Part shown: piece by piece, positions 463 through 5,431 of the stretch
Layout: every line of letters begins with the position of its first letter
Position numbering within the stretch: position 1 is the stretch's first letter
Made by a program: the position numbers and the translations under genes
Notes under the pieces: generated by a model
Databases searched by the model: none
The model's input: the letters and a program-made list of their open reading frames with translations, nothing else
Told to the model about the DNA's origin: nothing
Origin: Noviherbaspirillum sp.
Lineage (GTDB): Bacteria > Pseudomonadota > Gammaproteobacteria > Burkholderiales > Burkholderiaceae
Direction: 5' to 3'
Length of the DNA stretch: 5,794 nt
NCBI GenBank assembly: GCA_028292785.1
Contig: JAQGLQ010000247.1
Span: 1-5,794, forward strand

Positions 463-508
463 GCCCTGCGCCAGCAGGTGGGTTGCCGGGCGATACCAAT
501 AAAAAAAC

Positions 509-513
509 GGAGA
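509..513 (+). promoter_or_regulatory. Ribosome binding site that fixes the receptor start at 520
   Basis: GGAGA stands six bases before the ATG at 520. It supports this start over the in-frame GTG at 478, which would add 14 residues ahead of a clean signal peptide, and over the in-frame ATG at 538. Confidence 0.7.
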
Positions 514-519
514 CATCGC

Positions 520-2598
520 ATGACCCGCAGAACAAGAATGACAAGCCGGCAAATCCGCCTCACCGCAATGGCATCCGCCCTCCTCGGCGCACCGCTGCTT
601 GGAGGAACGGCCTATGCCGCCGATGAGGAGACCACACTGCCTGCGGTAGTCGTCGAGACCTCGCGCAACAGCCAGCTCGGCATCGCGGAATCGGCCAATG
701 CGGGCGTGGTTACGCAACAGCAGCTCGAAGCCCGCACCGTGTATCGCGCCGGCGAACTGCTCGAGACCATGCCGGGACTGATCGTCAGCCAGCATAGCGG
801 CGAGGGCAAGGCCAACCAGTTTTACCTGCGCGGATTCAATCTCGATCACGGCACCGACTTGCGCACCACGGTTGACGGCATGCTGGTCAATCAGCGCAGC
901 CATGGACACGGACAGGGATGGACCGACCTGAATTTCCTGATCCCGGAACTGGCGGCGCGGCTCGAGTACCGTAAAGGGCCGTACTATGCGTCGGAAGGAG
1001 ATTTCGCATCGGCGGGCGCGGCGAGCGTCGTGTATGCCGACAAGCTGGAGCAAGGCATCGCCAGCATCGGCATCGGCCAGAATGGATATGTGCGCACCCT
1101 GCTGGCCGACTCGCCCCGGCTGGGCCGCGGCAACCTGCTGTATGCGCTCGAGCTGTTTCATAACGATGGCCCATTCACCAATCCGGATGACTATCGCAAG
1201 TTCAATGGCGTATTGCGTTATTCGGAGGGTACATCCGCCAACGGCTTCAATCTCAGCGCCATGGCATATCGCGCAAAGTGGAACGCCACCGACCAGATTC
1301 CGCGGCGCGCGGTCGACAACGGCACGCTGTCACGTTTCGATGCGTTGGATCCGACCGATGGCGGCCGCTCCCATCGCTACAGCCTGTCGGGCGGATGGCG
1401 CAGAGCCGATGCATGGACTTCGGACGCGATCAATGCTTATGTCATTCACAACAAGCTGGACTTGTTTTCCAATTTCACCTATTTCGACGTGGATGCGGTC
1501 AACGGCGATCAATTCGCGCAGCCCGACCGGCGCACGACCACCGGCCTGAACCTCAGCCATGCCTGGCGCGCGCCGCTGCTCGGCCGCGATTCGGAAAACA
1601 CGATCGGCCTGCAACTGCAAAACGATAATATCTTCAACGGCCTGTACAACACGATGGCGCGGCAACGCATATCGACCACGCGCGAAGACCATATCGTGGA
1701 AAGCAGCGCCAGCGCTTATTTCGAAAACAATACTCAGTGGGCTGACAAGTTCCGCACGGTCGCCGGCCTTCGCGGCGATTATTACCGCTTCGACGTGCGC
1801 AGCGACAACCCGGCCAATTCCGGCAAAAGCAGCGACGGCATCGTCAGTCCGAAGCTGAACATGATTTTCGGGCCATGGGCGAAGACCGAGTATTACTTCA
1901 ACATCGGCCGCGGCTTTCACAGCAACGACGCGCGCGGCGCCACCATCACGGTCGATCCGCGCGAGGGTACCCCCGTGGAGCGGGCCACGCCGCTGGTGCG
2001 CTCGAAGGGCGTCGAGGTCGGCGTGCGCAGCGAGTTCATTCCAGGCTTGCAGAGCTCGCTCGCGCTGTACCGGCTGGACCTCGATTCGGAACTGCTGTTC
2101 GTCGGCGATGCCGGCACCACCGAGGCGAGCCATCCGAGCCGCCGCCATGGCATCGAGTTCAACAACTATTACCGCGCCACGAAGTGGCTGACCATCGATG
2201 CCGATATCGCATTCGCGCGCGCGCGCTTTCGCGGCGTGGGCACCGGGGATCGTATTCCCGGCGCGGTCGAGGGCGTGGCCTCGGCGGCGCTTGCGGTGGA
2301 CAATCTCGGGCCATGGTTCGGCGCGCTGCAGCTGCGCTATTTCGGCCCGCGCCCGCTGATCGAGGACAATAGCGTACGGTCGAAACCCACCGCGACGCTG
2401 AACGGTCGCATCGGCTACAAGATCAGCCGCGCCATGCGTGTCGAACTGGAAGGATTCAACCTGACCAACCGCCGCGATTCCGCGATCGATTATTACTACC
2501 CGTCACGCCTGCGCAATGAGCCGGAAGCGGTGGACGATATCCACTTCCATCCGATCGAGTCGCGCTCATTCCGCGTCACGCTCACGGCGAATTTCTGA
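520..2598 (+). CDS. TonB-dependent outer-membrane receptor, probable nickel (or Ni-chelate) importer
   Basis: A complete 692-residue receptor, the usual size for the family. With the ATG at 520 it begins with a basic Sec signal peptide (MTRRTRMTSRQ, hydrophobic core, likely cleavage after AYA at residues 31-33). A TonB-box-like LPAVVVET follows (40-47), then a plug domain (about 55-175) containing GEGKANQFYLRGFNLDHGTD, VDGMLV and HGHGQGWTDLNFL. The remainder is rich in aromatic, alternating strands expected of a 22-stranded barrel, and it ends in the outer-membrane terminal Phe (TLTANF). Such proteins import scarce metal complexes or other ligands into the periplasm using TonB/ExbBD energy; no tonB is in the window. 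Nickel is inferred from the NikR operator upstream and the convergent nikR downstream. His residues in the plug (H110, H128, H130) and near the C-terminus (HFHP, 675-678) would suit a metal ligand, though this receptor subfamily may carry them generally. Receptor class is near certain; substrate is moderately supported. Confidence 0.93.
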   Translation: MTRRTRMTSRQIRLTAMASALLGAPLLGGTAYAADEETTLPAVVVETSRNSQLGIAESANAGVVTQQQLEARTVYRAGELLETMPGLIVSQHSGEGKANQFYLRGFNLDHGTDLRTTVDGMLVNQRSHGHGQGWTDLNFLIPELAARLEYRKGPYYASEGDFASAGAASVVYADKLEQGIASIGIGQNGYVRTLLADSPRLGRGNLLYALELFHNDGPFTNPDDYRKFNGVLRYSEGTSANGFNLSAMAYRAKWNATDQIPRRAVDNGTLSRFDALDPTDGGRSHRYSLSGGWRRADAWTSDAINAYVIHNKLDLFSNFTYFDVDAVNGDQFAQPDRRTTTGLNLSHAWRAPLLGRDSENTIGLQLQNDNIFNGLYNTMARQRISTTREDHIVESSASAYFENNTQWADKFRTVAGLRGDYYRFDVRSDNPANSGKSSDGIVSPKLNMIFGPWAKTEYYFNIGRGFHSNDARGATITVDPREGTPVERATPLVRSKGVEVGVRSEFIPGLQSSLALYRLDLDSELLFVGDAGTTEASHPSRRHGIEFNNYYRATKWLTIDADIAFARARFRGVGTGDRIPGAVEGVASAALAVDNLGPWFGALQLRYFGPRPLIEDNSVRSKPTATLNGRIGYKISRAMRVELEGFNLTNRRDSAIDYYYPSRLRNEPEAVDDIHFHPIESRSFRVTLTANF

Positions 2599-2658: not shown

Positions 2659-3114
2659 TCACGTCTTCGGATGAAAATGCGGATGGCGATGCTGCGCCAG
2701 CGACGGCGTCGCCATGTCGACCGGCACGATGTTGACGCTGCCATGCCGCACGCCGCTGCGCGCGATCACGCTGTTGGCGAATTCATTGACCTGCTTGTAG
2801 GGACCGCGCAGCACCAGCGTTTCGAGGCAGCTGTGATGATCGAGATGGACATGCATGCTCGACACGCACAGGTCGTGATGTTCATGCTGGATCTCGGCCA
2901 GCCGGCTGGCGAGCTCGAGCTCGTGATGATTGTAGACATAGCTCAGGCTGGCGATGCAATAGCGGGCCTGATACGTCACCTTGCGTTCCTCCTCGATGCG
3001 GCTGCGCACCAGGTCGCGGAAGGCTTCCGAACGGTTTTCGTAGCCATGACGCTCGATCAGTTCATCGAACTGCTCGGCCAGCGAATCGTCGACGGAGATG
3101 GTTATGCGGCGCAT
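2659..3114 (-). CDS. nikR: Nickel-responsive transcriptional regulator NikR
   Basis: A complete 151-residue NikR. The N-terminal ribbon-helix-helix DNA-binding domain (about 1-48) reads RRITISVDDSLAEQFDEL, then RHGYENRSEAFRDLVRSRIEE, as in known NikR proteins. The C-terminal ACT-like nickel-binding domain (about 52-133) has every high-affinity square-planar ligand. H77 (in QHEHHD), H88 and H90 (in HVHLDHHSC) and C96 correspond to E. coli H76, H87, H89 and C95. GVRHGSVNIVP closes the fold. The family forms tetramers that bind DNA when loaded with Ni(II) and repress nickel uptake genes. A target is visible here: the operator at 436-462. Residues 142-148 form a His-rich tail (HRHPHFH) beyond the usual end. 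The start ATG at 3114 gives the family's N-terminus exactly; the ribosome site is weak. A possible -10 (TAATAT, minus strand, 3161-3156) lies upstream, and no second NikR operator was seen before this gene, so autoregulation is not supported. Confidence 0.95.
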   Translation of the reverse strand: MRRITISVDDSLAEQFDELIERHGYENRSEAFRDLVRSRIEEERKVTYQARYCIASLSYVYNHHELELASRLAEIQHEHHDLCVSSMHVHLDHHSCLETLVLRGPYKQVNEFANSVIARSGVRHGSVNIVPVDMATPSLAQHRHPHFHPKT

Positions 3115-3231: not shown

Positions 3232-4155
3232 ATGAGGCCCGGCGACTATTTTCGAATGGCGTTGCTCGCCGCCATATGGGGCGCGAGCTTCCTGTTCATG
3301 CGGATCGCCGCCCCCGTTCTGGGCGCCATCCCTTCTTCGTTCTTCAGGGTTCTGTTCGGCGCCCTCGGATTGGCGGCGATATTGGCGGTGCTGCGCGTGC
3401 GTTGGGTATTCAATGGAAAATTTCGCGCCACGCTCGGCCTCGGCATCATCAACTCCGGGATTCCATTCCTGATGTACTTCCTTGCGGCACAGCTTCTTCC
3501 GGCAGGCTATCTCGCGATTTTCAATGCGACCACGCCATTGATGGGCGCCCTGATCGGTTATCTGTTCTTTCAGGAGGAAATCAATGCCAGGAAGGCGGTC
3601 GGCATCGCCGCCGGCATCGGCGGCGTGGCACTGCTGACAGCCACCGGCCCGATCTCGATCAATGCCTCCGTTGTCCTGGGGGCGCTGGCCTGCATGGTGT
3701 CGACCGGATGCTATGGCGCCGCCGGGTTTCTGACCAAGCGATGGATCAGTGAGCGCGGCGGGCTGGACGCGAAGCTGGTGGCCTGCGGCAGCCAGATCGG
3801 CGCGGCCTTGTTTCTGACACCGTTCTTCGCGGCATCGGCAACCATCGCGCCGCCGCCGAGCTGGGGCGGCCACGCGGTGTGGCTGGCCTTGGCGGCGCTC
3901 GGGCTGGTCTGCACCGCTTGGGCTTATATCCTTTATTTCCGTTTGATTGCCGATATCGGGCCGGTGCGCTCGCTGACGGTGACCTTTCTCATTCCTCCAT
4001 TCGGCGTGCTGTGGGGCGCGCTATTTCTCGGCGAGCAGGTCTCCTGGGCACATCTCGCTGGGGGCAGCCTGATCGGCATTGCGGTGTGGCTTGTGTTGGG
4101 CCGGGCGAAACCGCCGGCATCGGCGGCGCGCGCCGCAACCGAACGATCGATTTAA
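3232..4155 (+). CDS. DMT-superfamily (EamA) inner-membrane transporter
   Basis: A complete 307-residue, very hydrophobic protein with about ten predicted membrane helices arranged as two EamA repeats, the standard length and layout of this drug/metabolite transporter family. Repeat one starts with LLAAIWGASFLFMRIAAP (about 11-28) and ends near FNATTPLMGALIGYLFFQEEI (about 97-117). Repeat two carries the equivalent PVRSLTVTFLIPPFGVLWGALFLGEQ segment (about 244-269). The acidic residues just after these helices (QEE, GEQ) and the early WG.SF motif are family hallmarks. A short basic cytoplasmic tail follows the last helix. Family members mostly export amino acids, metabolites or toxic compounds, and the substrate cannot be read from sequence. 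It is divergent from nikR and separated from the next gene by a 106-base spacer with its own LexA-controlled promoter, so it is probably monocistronic. A link to nickel is possible only by position and has no direct support. Confidence 0.92.
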   Translation: MRPGDYFRMALLAAIWGASFLFMRIAAPVLGAIPSSFFRVLFGALGLAAILAVLRVRWVFNGKFRATLGLGIINSGIPFLMYFLAAQLLPAGYLAIFNATTPLMGALIGYLFFQEEINARKAVGIAAGIGGVALLTATGPISINASVVLGALACMVSTGCYGAAGFLTKRWISERGGLDAKLVACGSQIGAALFLTPFFAASATIAPPPSWGGHAVWLALAALGLVCTAWAYILYFRLIADIGPVRSLTVTFLIPPFGVLWGALFLGEQVSWAHLAGGSLIGIAVWLVLGRAKPPASAARAATERSI

Positions 4156-4228: not shown

Positions 4229-4247
4229 ACTGTATATATATACAGCA
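4228..4247 (+). promoter_or_regulatory. LexA (SOS) box
   Basis: TACTGTATATATATACAGCA differs at one position from the E. coli LexA consensus TACTG-(TA)5-CAGTA. It keeps the essential CTGT-N8-ACAG core (4230-4245) with a fully alternating TA centre. It lies 14 bases before the ATG at 4262 and overlaps the proposed -10. Such a close match usually means tight repression until LexA cleavage after DNA damage. The site faces only this gene; the upstream transporter ends 72 bases earlier on the same strand. Confidence 0.9.
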
Positions 4248-4261
4248 TAAGCGGACCGAAG

Positions 4262-5431
4262 ATGTCAGACCACCAACCCCCGGAGGAAAAGGAAGCGCGA
4301 GCGGCTCGCTCGAAGATAACTGTGCTCAAAGGTCGCGGCTCCGTATCGAATTTGCAAGGTCGTTACGAACTTCACGCCCGCGAGAGTTTCGACGACGGTT
4401 GGACGGACGGCTGGGACGATGATGGTGCTGATACAAGAGCGTCTGTGAAAACACAGGTATTCGAGGAAAAAGCCAAAAGCATCCTGACTCGAAACGCGTC
4501 TCCCGATATTCCGTTCAACGTCTCTCTGAATCCGTTTCGGGGATGCGAGCACGGTTGCATTTACTGTTTTGCCCGTCCGTCGCACAGTTATCTAAGCTTA
4601 TCGCCAGGGCTGGATTTTGAAACCAAGATCTTCGCCAAGGTCAATGCGCCGGAGCTGCTGAGGCGCGAACTGGCGCACCCATCCTATGTCCCCGAGCCGA
4701 TCGCCCTCGGCGTCAACACCGACGCCTACCAGCCTTGCGAACGTACGTTGCGCCTGACGCGGCGCGTGCTCGAAGTGCTGCATGAATGCGAACATCCGGT
4801 GGCGCTCATCACCAAGTCGTCGCTGATCGAGCGCGACATCGACCTGCTGGCCGATATGGCGAGCCGCGGATTGGCAATGGCGGCGCTGACCATCACCACA
4901 CTCGATCCCGCCATCGCCCGCACGCTCGAACCGCGCGCCGCCGCGCCGGCGCGGCGCCTGCGCACCATACGCGCACTGAGCGAGGCGGGCATCCCGGTCG
5001 GCGTGAGCATCGCGCCGGTGATTCCATTCATCACCGAACCGGATCTCGAGCGCGTGGTGGCGGCCGTGGCGGAAGCCGGGGCGGTCAGCGCCAGCCACAT
5101 CGTGCTACGTCTGCCATGGGAAGTGAATCCGCTGTTCCAGCAGTGGCTGCAGGCGCATTTCCCGGAGCGCGCGCAACGCGTCATGAACCGGCTGCGCGAG
5201 ATGCGAGGGGGCAAGGACTACGATGCCAGCTTCGGCAAGCGCATGCAGGGCGAAGGGGTGTGGGCCGACCTGATCCGCCAGCGTTTTGAAAAGGCGGCCG
5301 AGCGCGTCGGCCTCGGCGCGCGCGATCGCGGTTTCAAGGCGCTCGACGCATCGCGCTTTCGCCGGCCGCTGACGGTACCCTCCAGCTCCAAGGGAACGGA
5401 AAATTCGAGCGGCCAACTCGATCTCTTTTAG
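4262..5431 (+). CDS. SOS-controlled radical SAM protein, PA0069/SplB-like family, with C-terminal beta-clamp motif
   Basis: A complete 389-residue protein. The family-typical N-terminus KGRGSVSNLQGRYE (23-36) is followed by an acidic DDGWTDGWDDDGAD stretch. The radical SAM cluster motif CEHGCIYC (C95, C99, C102; CxxxCxxC) follows, binding a [4Fe-4S] cluster that cleaves S-adenosylmethionine to a 5'-deoxyadenosyl radical. The barrel continues through ALGVNTDAYQPCE, ALITKSSLIERD, ALTITTLD and GVSIAPVIPFI. This order matches the PA0069/Rv2578c group, related to spore photoproduct lyase, whose reaction is not known to me. The last five residues, QLDLF (385-389), match the beta-sliding-clamp binding pentapeptide QL(S/D)LF and sit after a flexible Ser-rich linker. 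With the LexA box upstream, a DNA-repair role is inferred. The first 120 codons are clearly less GC-rich than the rest. The ATG at 4262 has only a weak CGGA ribosome site, but the conserved N-terminus begins soon after it, and later starts would cut into it. Confidence 0.93.
   Translation: MSDHQPPEEKEARAARSKITVLKGRGSVSNLQGRYELHARESFDDGWTDGWDDDGADTRASVKTQVFEEKAKSILTRNASPDIPFNVSLNPFRGCEHGCIYCFARPSHSYLSLSPGLDFETKIFAKVNAPELLRRELAHPSYVPEPIALGVNTDAYQPCERTLRLTRRVLEVLHECEHPVALITKSSLIERDIDLLADMASRGLAMAALTITTLDPAIARTLEPRAAAPARRLRTIRALSEAGIPVGVSIAPVIPFITEPDLERVVAAVAEAGAVSASHIVLRLPWEVNPLFQQWLQAHFPERAQRVMNRLREMRGGKDYDASFGKRMQGEGVWADLIRQRFEKAAERVGLGARDRGFKALDASRFRRPLTVPSSSKGTENSSGQLDLF

Follow-up and report, generated by a model that had tools for sequence, protein, structure and literature searches.

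Binding to the bacterial sliding clamp DnaN is mediated by a short peptide with the consensus QL[S/D]LF or QxxLF, in which mutations at positions 1, 4 and 5 weaken or abolish the interaction (PMC12309361, 2025, in the sections available), and a study of transposases describes the motif, in the part available, as Q-L-x-L-F, C-terminal as a rule (PMC4549789). According to excerpts of the respective papers, LexA controls splB-type genes in alpha- and beta-Proteobacteria (PMC3323433), splB-type or radical S-adenosylmethionine (SAM) genes in Bacteroidetes (PMC8565304) and in Gram-positives and Balneolaeota (PMC7739468), and the gene vnz_31145 in Streptomyces venezuelae (PMC9380542), while SplB-like genes are found in operons with ImuB-C proteins (PMC3765255). 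Here we analyse a stretch of 5,794 nucleotides from Noviherbaspirillum sp. (GenBank assembly GCA_028292785.1, contig JAQGLQ010000247.1; hereafter, the window), which encodes a radical SAM protein of the PA0069 family that has a perfect LexA box upstream and a pentapeptide of the clamp-binding type at its C-terminus.

The gene (4262..5431, plus strand) encodes 389 amino acids followed by a stop codon. The protein belongs to the PA0069 family, scoring 476.8 bits against NF033668 over residues 23-370 (cut-off 360), and to the radical SAM superfamily, as seen from the Pfam match to Radical_SAM (PF04055, 56.5 bits) together with the CxxxCxxC iron-sulfur motif CEHGCIYC (C95, C99, C102; 4544..4567, plus strand). 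Its nearest named relative, 92% identical, comes from a Herminiimonas metagenome bin. Translation of the open reading frame (ORF) bears out the preliminary description, which had the protein ending in the canonical QLDLF: the end reads GQLDLF, and the pentapeptide comprises residues 385-389. The C-terminal placement was correct, while the quoted positions 5417-5431 were one codon (3 bases) late, covering LDLF and the stop; the codons CAA CTC GAT CTC TTT occupy 5414-5428 (plus strand), and the stop codon TAG, 5429-5431. We propose, with a probability of about 0.75, that this is an SOS-induced radical SAM enzyme with a fold like that of spore photoproduct lyase, tethered to DnaN by the QLDLF tail, whose action on DNA takes place where replication has stalled or left gaps.

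Conservation of the motif was assessed in three samples. The first one, the window protein with 119 close homologues (the best 120 of approximately 8000 scored), is composed of closely related proteins; all 120 have Q..LF at most eight residues from the end, and 101 at the very end. In the second sample, 80 loci from species-level genomes with proteins approximately 50-75% identical, Q..LF is terminal in 73 cases and lies within the same eight residues in 75, while the relaxed pattern Q..[LMI][FLIWYM] is found there in 77. The third and least biased sample consists of 299 evenly drawn Pseudomonadota genomes, 117 of which yielded a match; only the 111 passing the family cut-off were studied, and one locus (L001) is common to the second and third samples. 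Under strict regular expressions, 54 of these 111 proteins end in Q..LF and 68 have it at most eight residues from the end, whereas a loose penta- or hexapeptide is present in this range in 107. When the whole tail was scored, the pentapeptide Q..[LMF][FLIWM] was found in 107 of the 111 and the hexapeptide form in three (QMALDL, QMALDL, QMGLDF). Two proteins that appear as misses in the end-window count simply continue beyond the motif, L139 having QGDLF followed by 24 residues and L153, QMDLF followed by 75. The only other variant, QLTLPGL in L126, resembles the Hda motif.

Thus, the alignment of C-termini suggested in the preliminary description yields a clamp-type penta- or hexapeptide behind the enzyme core in 110 of the 111 evenly drawn orthologues and an Hda-like variant in one; the observation named there as speaking against the idea, orthologues aligned as far as the C-terminus yet lacking the motif, was not made among them. 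Since the motif is kept in nearly all orthologues sampled, replication sites are probably where the enzyme acts. In a Massilia orthologue (L050:699-1958) the tail contains the motif twice (QLDLFGGG...SPQLDLF), as if motif and linker had been duplicated together. Three IMG/VR contigs (L081, L082, L083) end inside a PA0069-like gene, before the tail; they may represent host sequence wrongly binned as viral.

To describe the constraint on individual positions we used an alignment of 65 sequences, hand-picked for spread (12 from the 120 close homologues, 40 from the 80 loci and 13 from the 120 Streptomyces-type homologues considered below, leaving out loci L018 and L055 and five Streptomyces-type proteins that miss the simple patterns). 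It thus combines the PA0069 family of Pseudomonadota with Rv2578c-type proteins of Streptomyces, 35-79% identical to the window protein. Only 39 columns are invariant, among them Gln-385 and the three cysteines C95, C99 and C102. The entropies of motif positions 1 to 5 are 0.00, 2.20, 2.61, 0.11 and 0.72 bits; Gln-1 is present in 100% of the sequences, Leu-4 in 98% of them and Phe-5 in 80%, and positions 2 and 3 vary. This distribution of conserved and tolerant positions closely matches that of the published clamp-binding motif.

The segment that joins the enzyme core to the motif (residues 371-384; 5372..5413, plus strand) is hypervariable, with an entropy of approximately 2-3.5 bits and many gaps. 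In the AlphaFold2 model built from the same alignment (predicted local distance difference test, pLDDT, 76.5; predicted template modelling score, pTM, 0.77; a version from 24 close sequences was poor, with pLDDT 59.6), most of the core is confident, low confidence being seen in residues 1-60 and in the loops at approximately 101-117 beside the cluster cysteines. The tail from residue 366 is modelled as coil, with the mean pLDDT of 68 at 371-380 and 49 at 381-389; the linker has no secondary structure, and pLDDT falls below 50 at 379-382. Such a predicted coil is what would be expected of a tether, and the flexible linker postulated earlier agrees both with the variable columns and with the low-confidence tail. 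Hence, the protein has the sequence features of a clamp client, a match to QL[S/D]LF/QxxLF and conservation of this motif behind a flexible segment.

The LexA box noticed in the preliminary description is real and perfect: CTGTATATATATACAG (4230..4245, plus strand) is a 16-base palindrome in the promoter region, separated by 16 bases from the ATG start codon of the radical SAM gene, and 200 shuffles gave no match with up to three mismatches. We scanned the 111 orthologous loci from -300 to +150 around the projected start, using 50 rounds of first-order shuffling as the control. The pattern CTGT-N8-ACAG was found in 29 loci, GTTC-N7-GTTC or its reverse complement in 66, and either of them in 95, compared to the mean of 1.5 and the maximum of four in shuffled windows. 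LexA control of the PA0069-type family is already known, and PA0069 itself is, we assume, a LexA target in Pseudomonas aeruginosa.

The closest solved fold to the modelled protein is that of spore photoproduct lyase (SPL, SplB), which occupies all six top rows of the fold comparison, approximately 2 Z units above the rest. In the solved lyase, C140 is presumably the catalytic hydrogen-donor cysteine; among the columns of the 65-sequence alignment, no cysteine other than C95, C99 and C102 is invariant.

Of the components of the proposed reading, the motif and its pattern of conservation, the variable linker, the LexA box and the similarity of the predicted fold were observed directly; docking of the QLDLF tail on the clamp is very likely; SOS induction of the gene is also very likely, by analogy with that reported for splB-type genes; and DNA as the substrate, with reversal of a lesion, is likely. 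Damage would lead to cleavage of LexA and derepression of the radical SAM gene; the last five residues of the protein would dock in the hydrophobic cleft of DnaN; the flexible C-terminal linker would then tether the enzyme to clamps at gaps or at forks that have stalled, and SAM-derived radical chemistry would be applied to the DNA there, most likely reversing a base lesion or a crosslink directly.

Several observations weigh against this reading. The simple patterns are missed by three of the 80 loci of the second sample (QFDFFDDGM, QGDFFL, QGQLAW) and by five of the 120 Streptomyces-type homologues, and Q..LF at most eight residues from the end is found in none of 18 more distant radical SAM relatives. 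A strict LexA box of either pattern is lacking in 16 of the 111 loci, a few of which have near forms; the Xanthomonad-type box, in the form in which we recall it, is present in one of the 16. The SPL families TIGR04070 and PF20903 do not match the window protein at E 0.001, nor did a profile search of PDB sequences with this protein find spore photoproduct lyase, and hence homology gives no indication of the substrate. Finally, the recurrent neighbours of the gene are housekeeping genes within Burkholderiales, so that the gene context names no pathway.

The alternative that survives best, in our opinion improbable, accepts that the tail docks on the clamp and supposes that the enzyme, instead of repairing DNA, uses radical chemistry to modify the clamp, a protein of the replisome or some other partner, or serves mainly to compete for the clamp in the SOS response. 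The uniform placement of spore photoproduct lyase at the top of the fold comparison argues against it, and the invariance of the three radical SAM cysteines makes a purely passive competitor unlikely.

The motif could also be kept for another reason, as a degradation tag clearing an SOS protein or as a ligand of a different partner whose groove is similar. Degradation signals commonly consist of hydrophobic residues at the C-terminus, and the motif stands at the very end in 92 of 110 orthologues. However, in the remaining 18 it is followed by extra residues, up to 75, and hexapeptide and internal forms exist, which does not suit a tag; moreover, both the full conservation of Gln-1 and the position-wise constraint, being that of clamp motifs, disfavour the tag and the different partner alike. 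We consider this explanation to be still less probable than the previous one.

As the background for the terminal motif we took the other ORFs of at least 150 amino acids in the flanks of the 80 orthologue loci (n = 552), the rule of longest non-overlapping ORFs retaining 56 of the 80 targets. Q..LF at most eight residues from the C-terminus occurs in 54 of the 56 targets and in none of the background ORFs; a much looser penta- or hexapeptide pattern occurs in 56 and seven, respectively. Short motifs do arise by chance, but this contrast, together with the glutamine invariant in an alignment across two phyla, rules out a functionless chance match with near certainty. At the DNA level, the 15 bases of the motif form 96 distinct sequences among 107 orthologues, with several synonymous codons at Leu-4 and Phe-5, and thus selection acts on the peptide. 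A weak terminator-like hairpin (5405-5421) overlaps the codons just before and inside QLDLF in the window; the diversity of the orthologue codons argues against a DNA-level cause of the conservation.

Outside the PA0069 family, similar ends are seen in Actinomycetota: with a Streptomyces protein as the query, 115 of the best 120 homologues had Q..L[LIMF] at the end, and 106 of the 120 had QLTLL or QLTLI. Like the first sample, this list and the clostridial one below are the best of approximately 8000 scored, and their proteins are closely related. Four relatives from plasmid records end in QLTLL (Streptomyces query), QESLF, QLRLL and QEPLF, and both of the plasmid-record relatives tested pass the Rv2578c cut-off. 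A Gemmatirosa relative ends in QLSLGI. In a clostridial group, 104 of the best 120 proteins fit the loose pattern, with ends such as EQLSFF and QQSLFD; this set is weaker and less certain evidence because of Phe at position 4, seen in the 72 of the 120 that end in EQLSFF. Two proteins of this group were tested, and neither reaches any NCBIfam cut-off. Among four clostridial relatives from plasmid records, only L239 (QQSLFD) has Q..LF, while L242 has QLSFF, L237, QLSFL, and L238 ends in EQLGF, one residue short.

The 18 distant relatives mentioned above comprise three mob_pairB proteins, two from Paenibacillus, one each from Priestia, Staphylococcus, Runella and Nostoc, four haloarchaeal proteins and five phage-like ones from IMG/VR (L084-L088); haloarchaeal L249 (no annotated gene), L089 and L090 (weak matches) and L081-L083 (running off the contig) were left out. 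Loose matches occur in two of the 18, QKFLLDI in L084 and QSELL ten residues before the end in L250, and the kin of these proteins have none. The absence of terminal Q..LF from this set led us to reject the idea that the motif is common to all SplB-like relatives; it marks certain branches instead. We lean slightly towards a broad class of replication-coupled, clamp-riding radical SAM repair enzymes, composed of the PA0069 and Rv2578c families with their clostridial and gemmatimonad relatives, such that SplB-like enzymes would be linked to clamps in both domains.

The neighbourhood of the gene was described using the best clusters only, families being named by Pfam from one member each. Up to 19 of the 80 loci share a Burkholderiaceae block with genes for an acyl-CoA dehydrogenase, a FAD-dependent oxidoreductase and a tRNA m1G methyltransferase, and 10-12 of the other 61, a second Burkholderiales group, have DnaJ, ribosomal L9 and DnaB helicase as neighbours. 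In particular, the ribosomal L9 and DnaB helicase genes lie at most 5 kb from the radical SAM gene in L036:189-2215 and approximately nine further Burkholderiales loci (about 10 of 80). We take these recurrent neighbours as housekeeping synteny within Burkholderiales. Co-occurrence with ImuA in the 299 genomes is uninformative for pairing, with a match at E 0.001 in 284 and a score over the cut-off in 44, and in the TIGR04470 paralogue control on the same genomes nearly all matches are the PA0069 genes themselves.

Neighbours were also recorded for some relatives that lack terminal Q..LF. On a Staphylococcus saprophyticus plasmid (L251:766-3540), such a gene lies between genes for a PF09859 oxygenase of the damaged-DNA type and an HhH-GPD DNA glycosylase, the latter adjoining a gene with an Ada domain, so that the cluster resembles alkylation repair. 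On a conjugative plasmid of Runella (L244:443-3606), it is situated between genes for a HipA-domain protein and a UvrD-type helicase. On haloarchaeal and Nostoc plasmids (L246, L247, L248, L250, L252), a second radical SAM gene, the three-Cys-motif partner gene tcmP or both adjoin it recurrently. In the window itself, an EamA-family transporter gene (3232-4155, plus strand) lies upstream of the radical SAM gene, and a TonB-dependent receptor gene (478-2598, plus strand) is convergent with that of a NikR-type nickel regulator (2659-3114, minus strand), which, at a guess, may control the receptor.

SplB-like radical SAM genes recur in the LexA regulons of several phyla, and in the excerpts of the SplB/LexA literature cited here we found no demonstrated substrate for SplB-like proteins outside spores. 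A clamp tether would place the action of these enzymes at replication sites, suggest a replication-blocking lesion as the substrate to look for, and, with its five residues, offer a means of studying localisation apart from catalysis. Clamp clients would then include enzymes of radical SAM chemistry. In the portions of open-access full text searched, we found no PA0069, Rv2578c or COG1533 protein reported to have a clamp-binding motif; the subscription literature may hold such a report.

Compared with known systems, the protein resembles spore photoproduct lyase in fold, but the identity is only 11-13% over the aligned part. Like the SOS-regulated splB/COG1533 genes, the gene is under a LexA box, while a term search of the accessible text of PMC3323433, PMC8565304, PMC7739468, PMC9380542 and PMC3765255 returned no clamp motif for them. 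The tail is of the same kind as in DNA polymerases, ImuB, MutS/MutL and transposases, where, in the sections available, the motif is a short QL[S/D]LF/QxxLF, often C-terminal, with positions 1, 4 and 5 decisive (PMC12309361, PMC4549789); ImuB is, according to the excerpt, a damage-linked clamp client (PMC10421592), as we propose here. The clients in those systems are polymerases, mismatch-repair proteins and transposases, whereas the candidate described here is a radical SAM enzyme, which would add a new kind of client to a docking system already known. Among Actinobacteria and Archaea, EndoMS/NucS is also a stand-alone repair enzyme, whose C-terminal residues, in the part of the report available, dock on DnaN/PCNA with the interaction activating it (PMC8228993); it differs in being a nuclease with the motif [E/K][L/Y][T/R]LF and with another fold and chemistry. 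In archaea, a SplB-like gene is, in the accessible text, linked to that of NreB, a member of the Nre family, whose proteins carry a PCNA-binding motif at the C-terminus (PMC4929162). There, the sliding-clamp motif is on the partner, and here, on the radical SAM protein itself; if our reading is true, the link between SplB-like enzymes and clamps would be direct in bacteria and would proceed through the PCNA-binding Nre partner in archaea.
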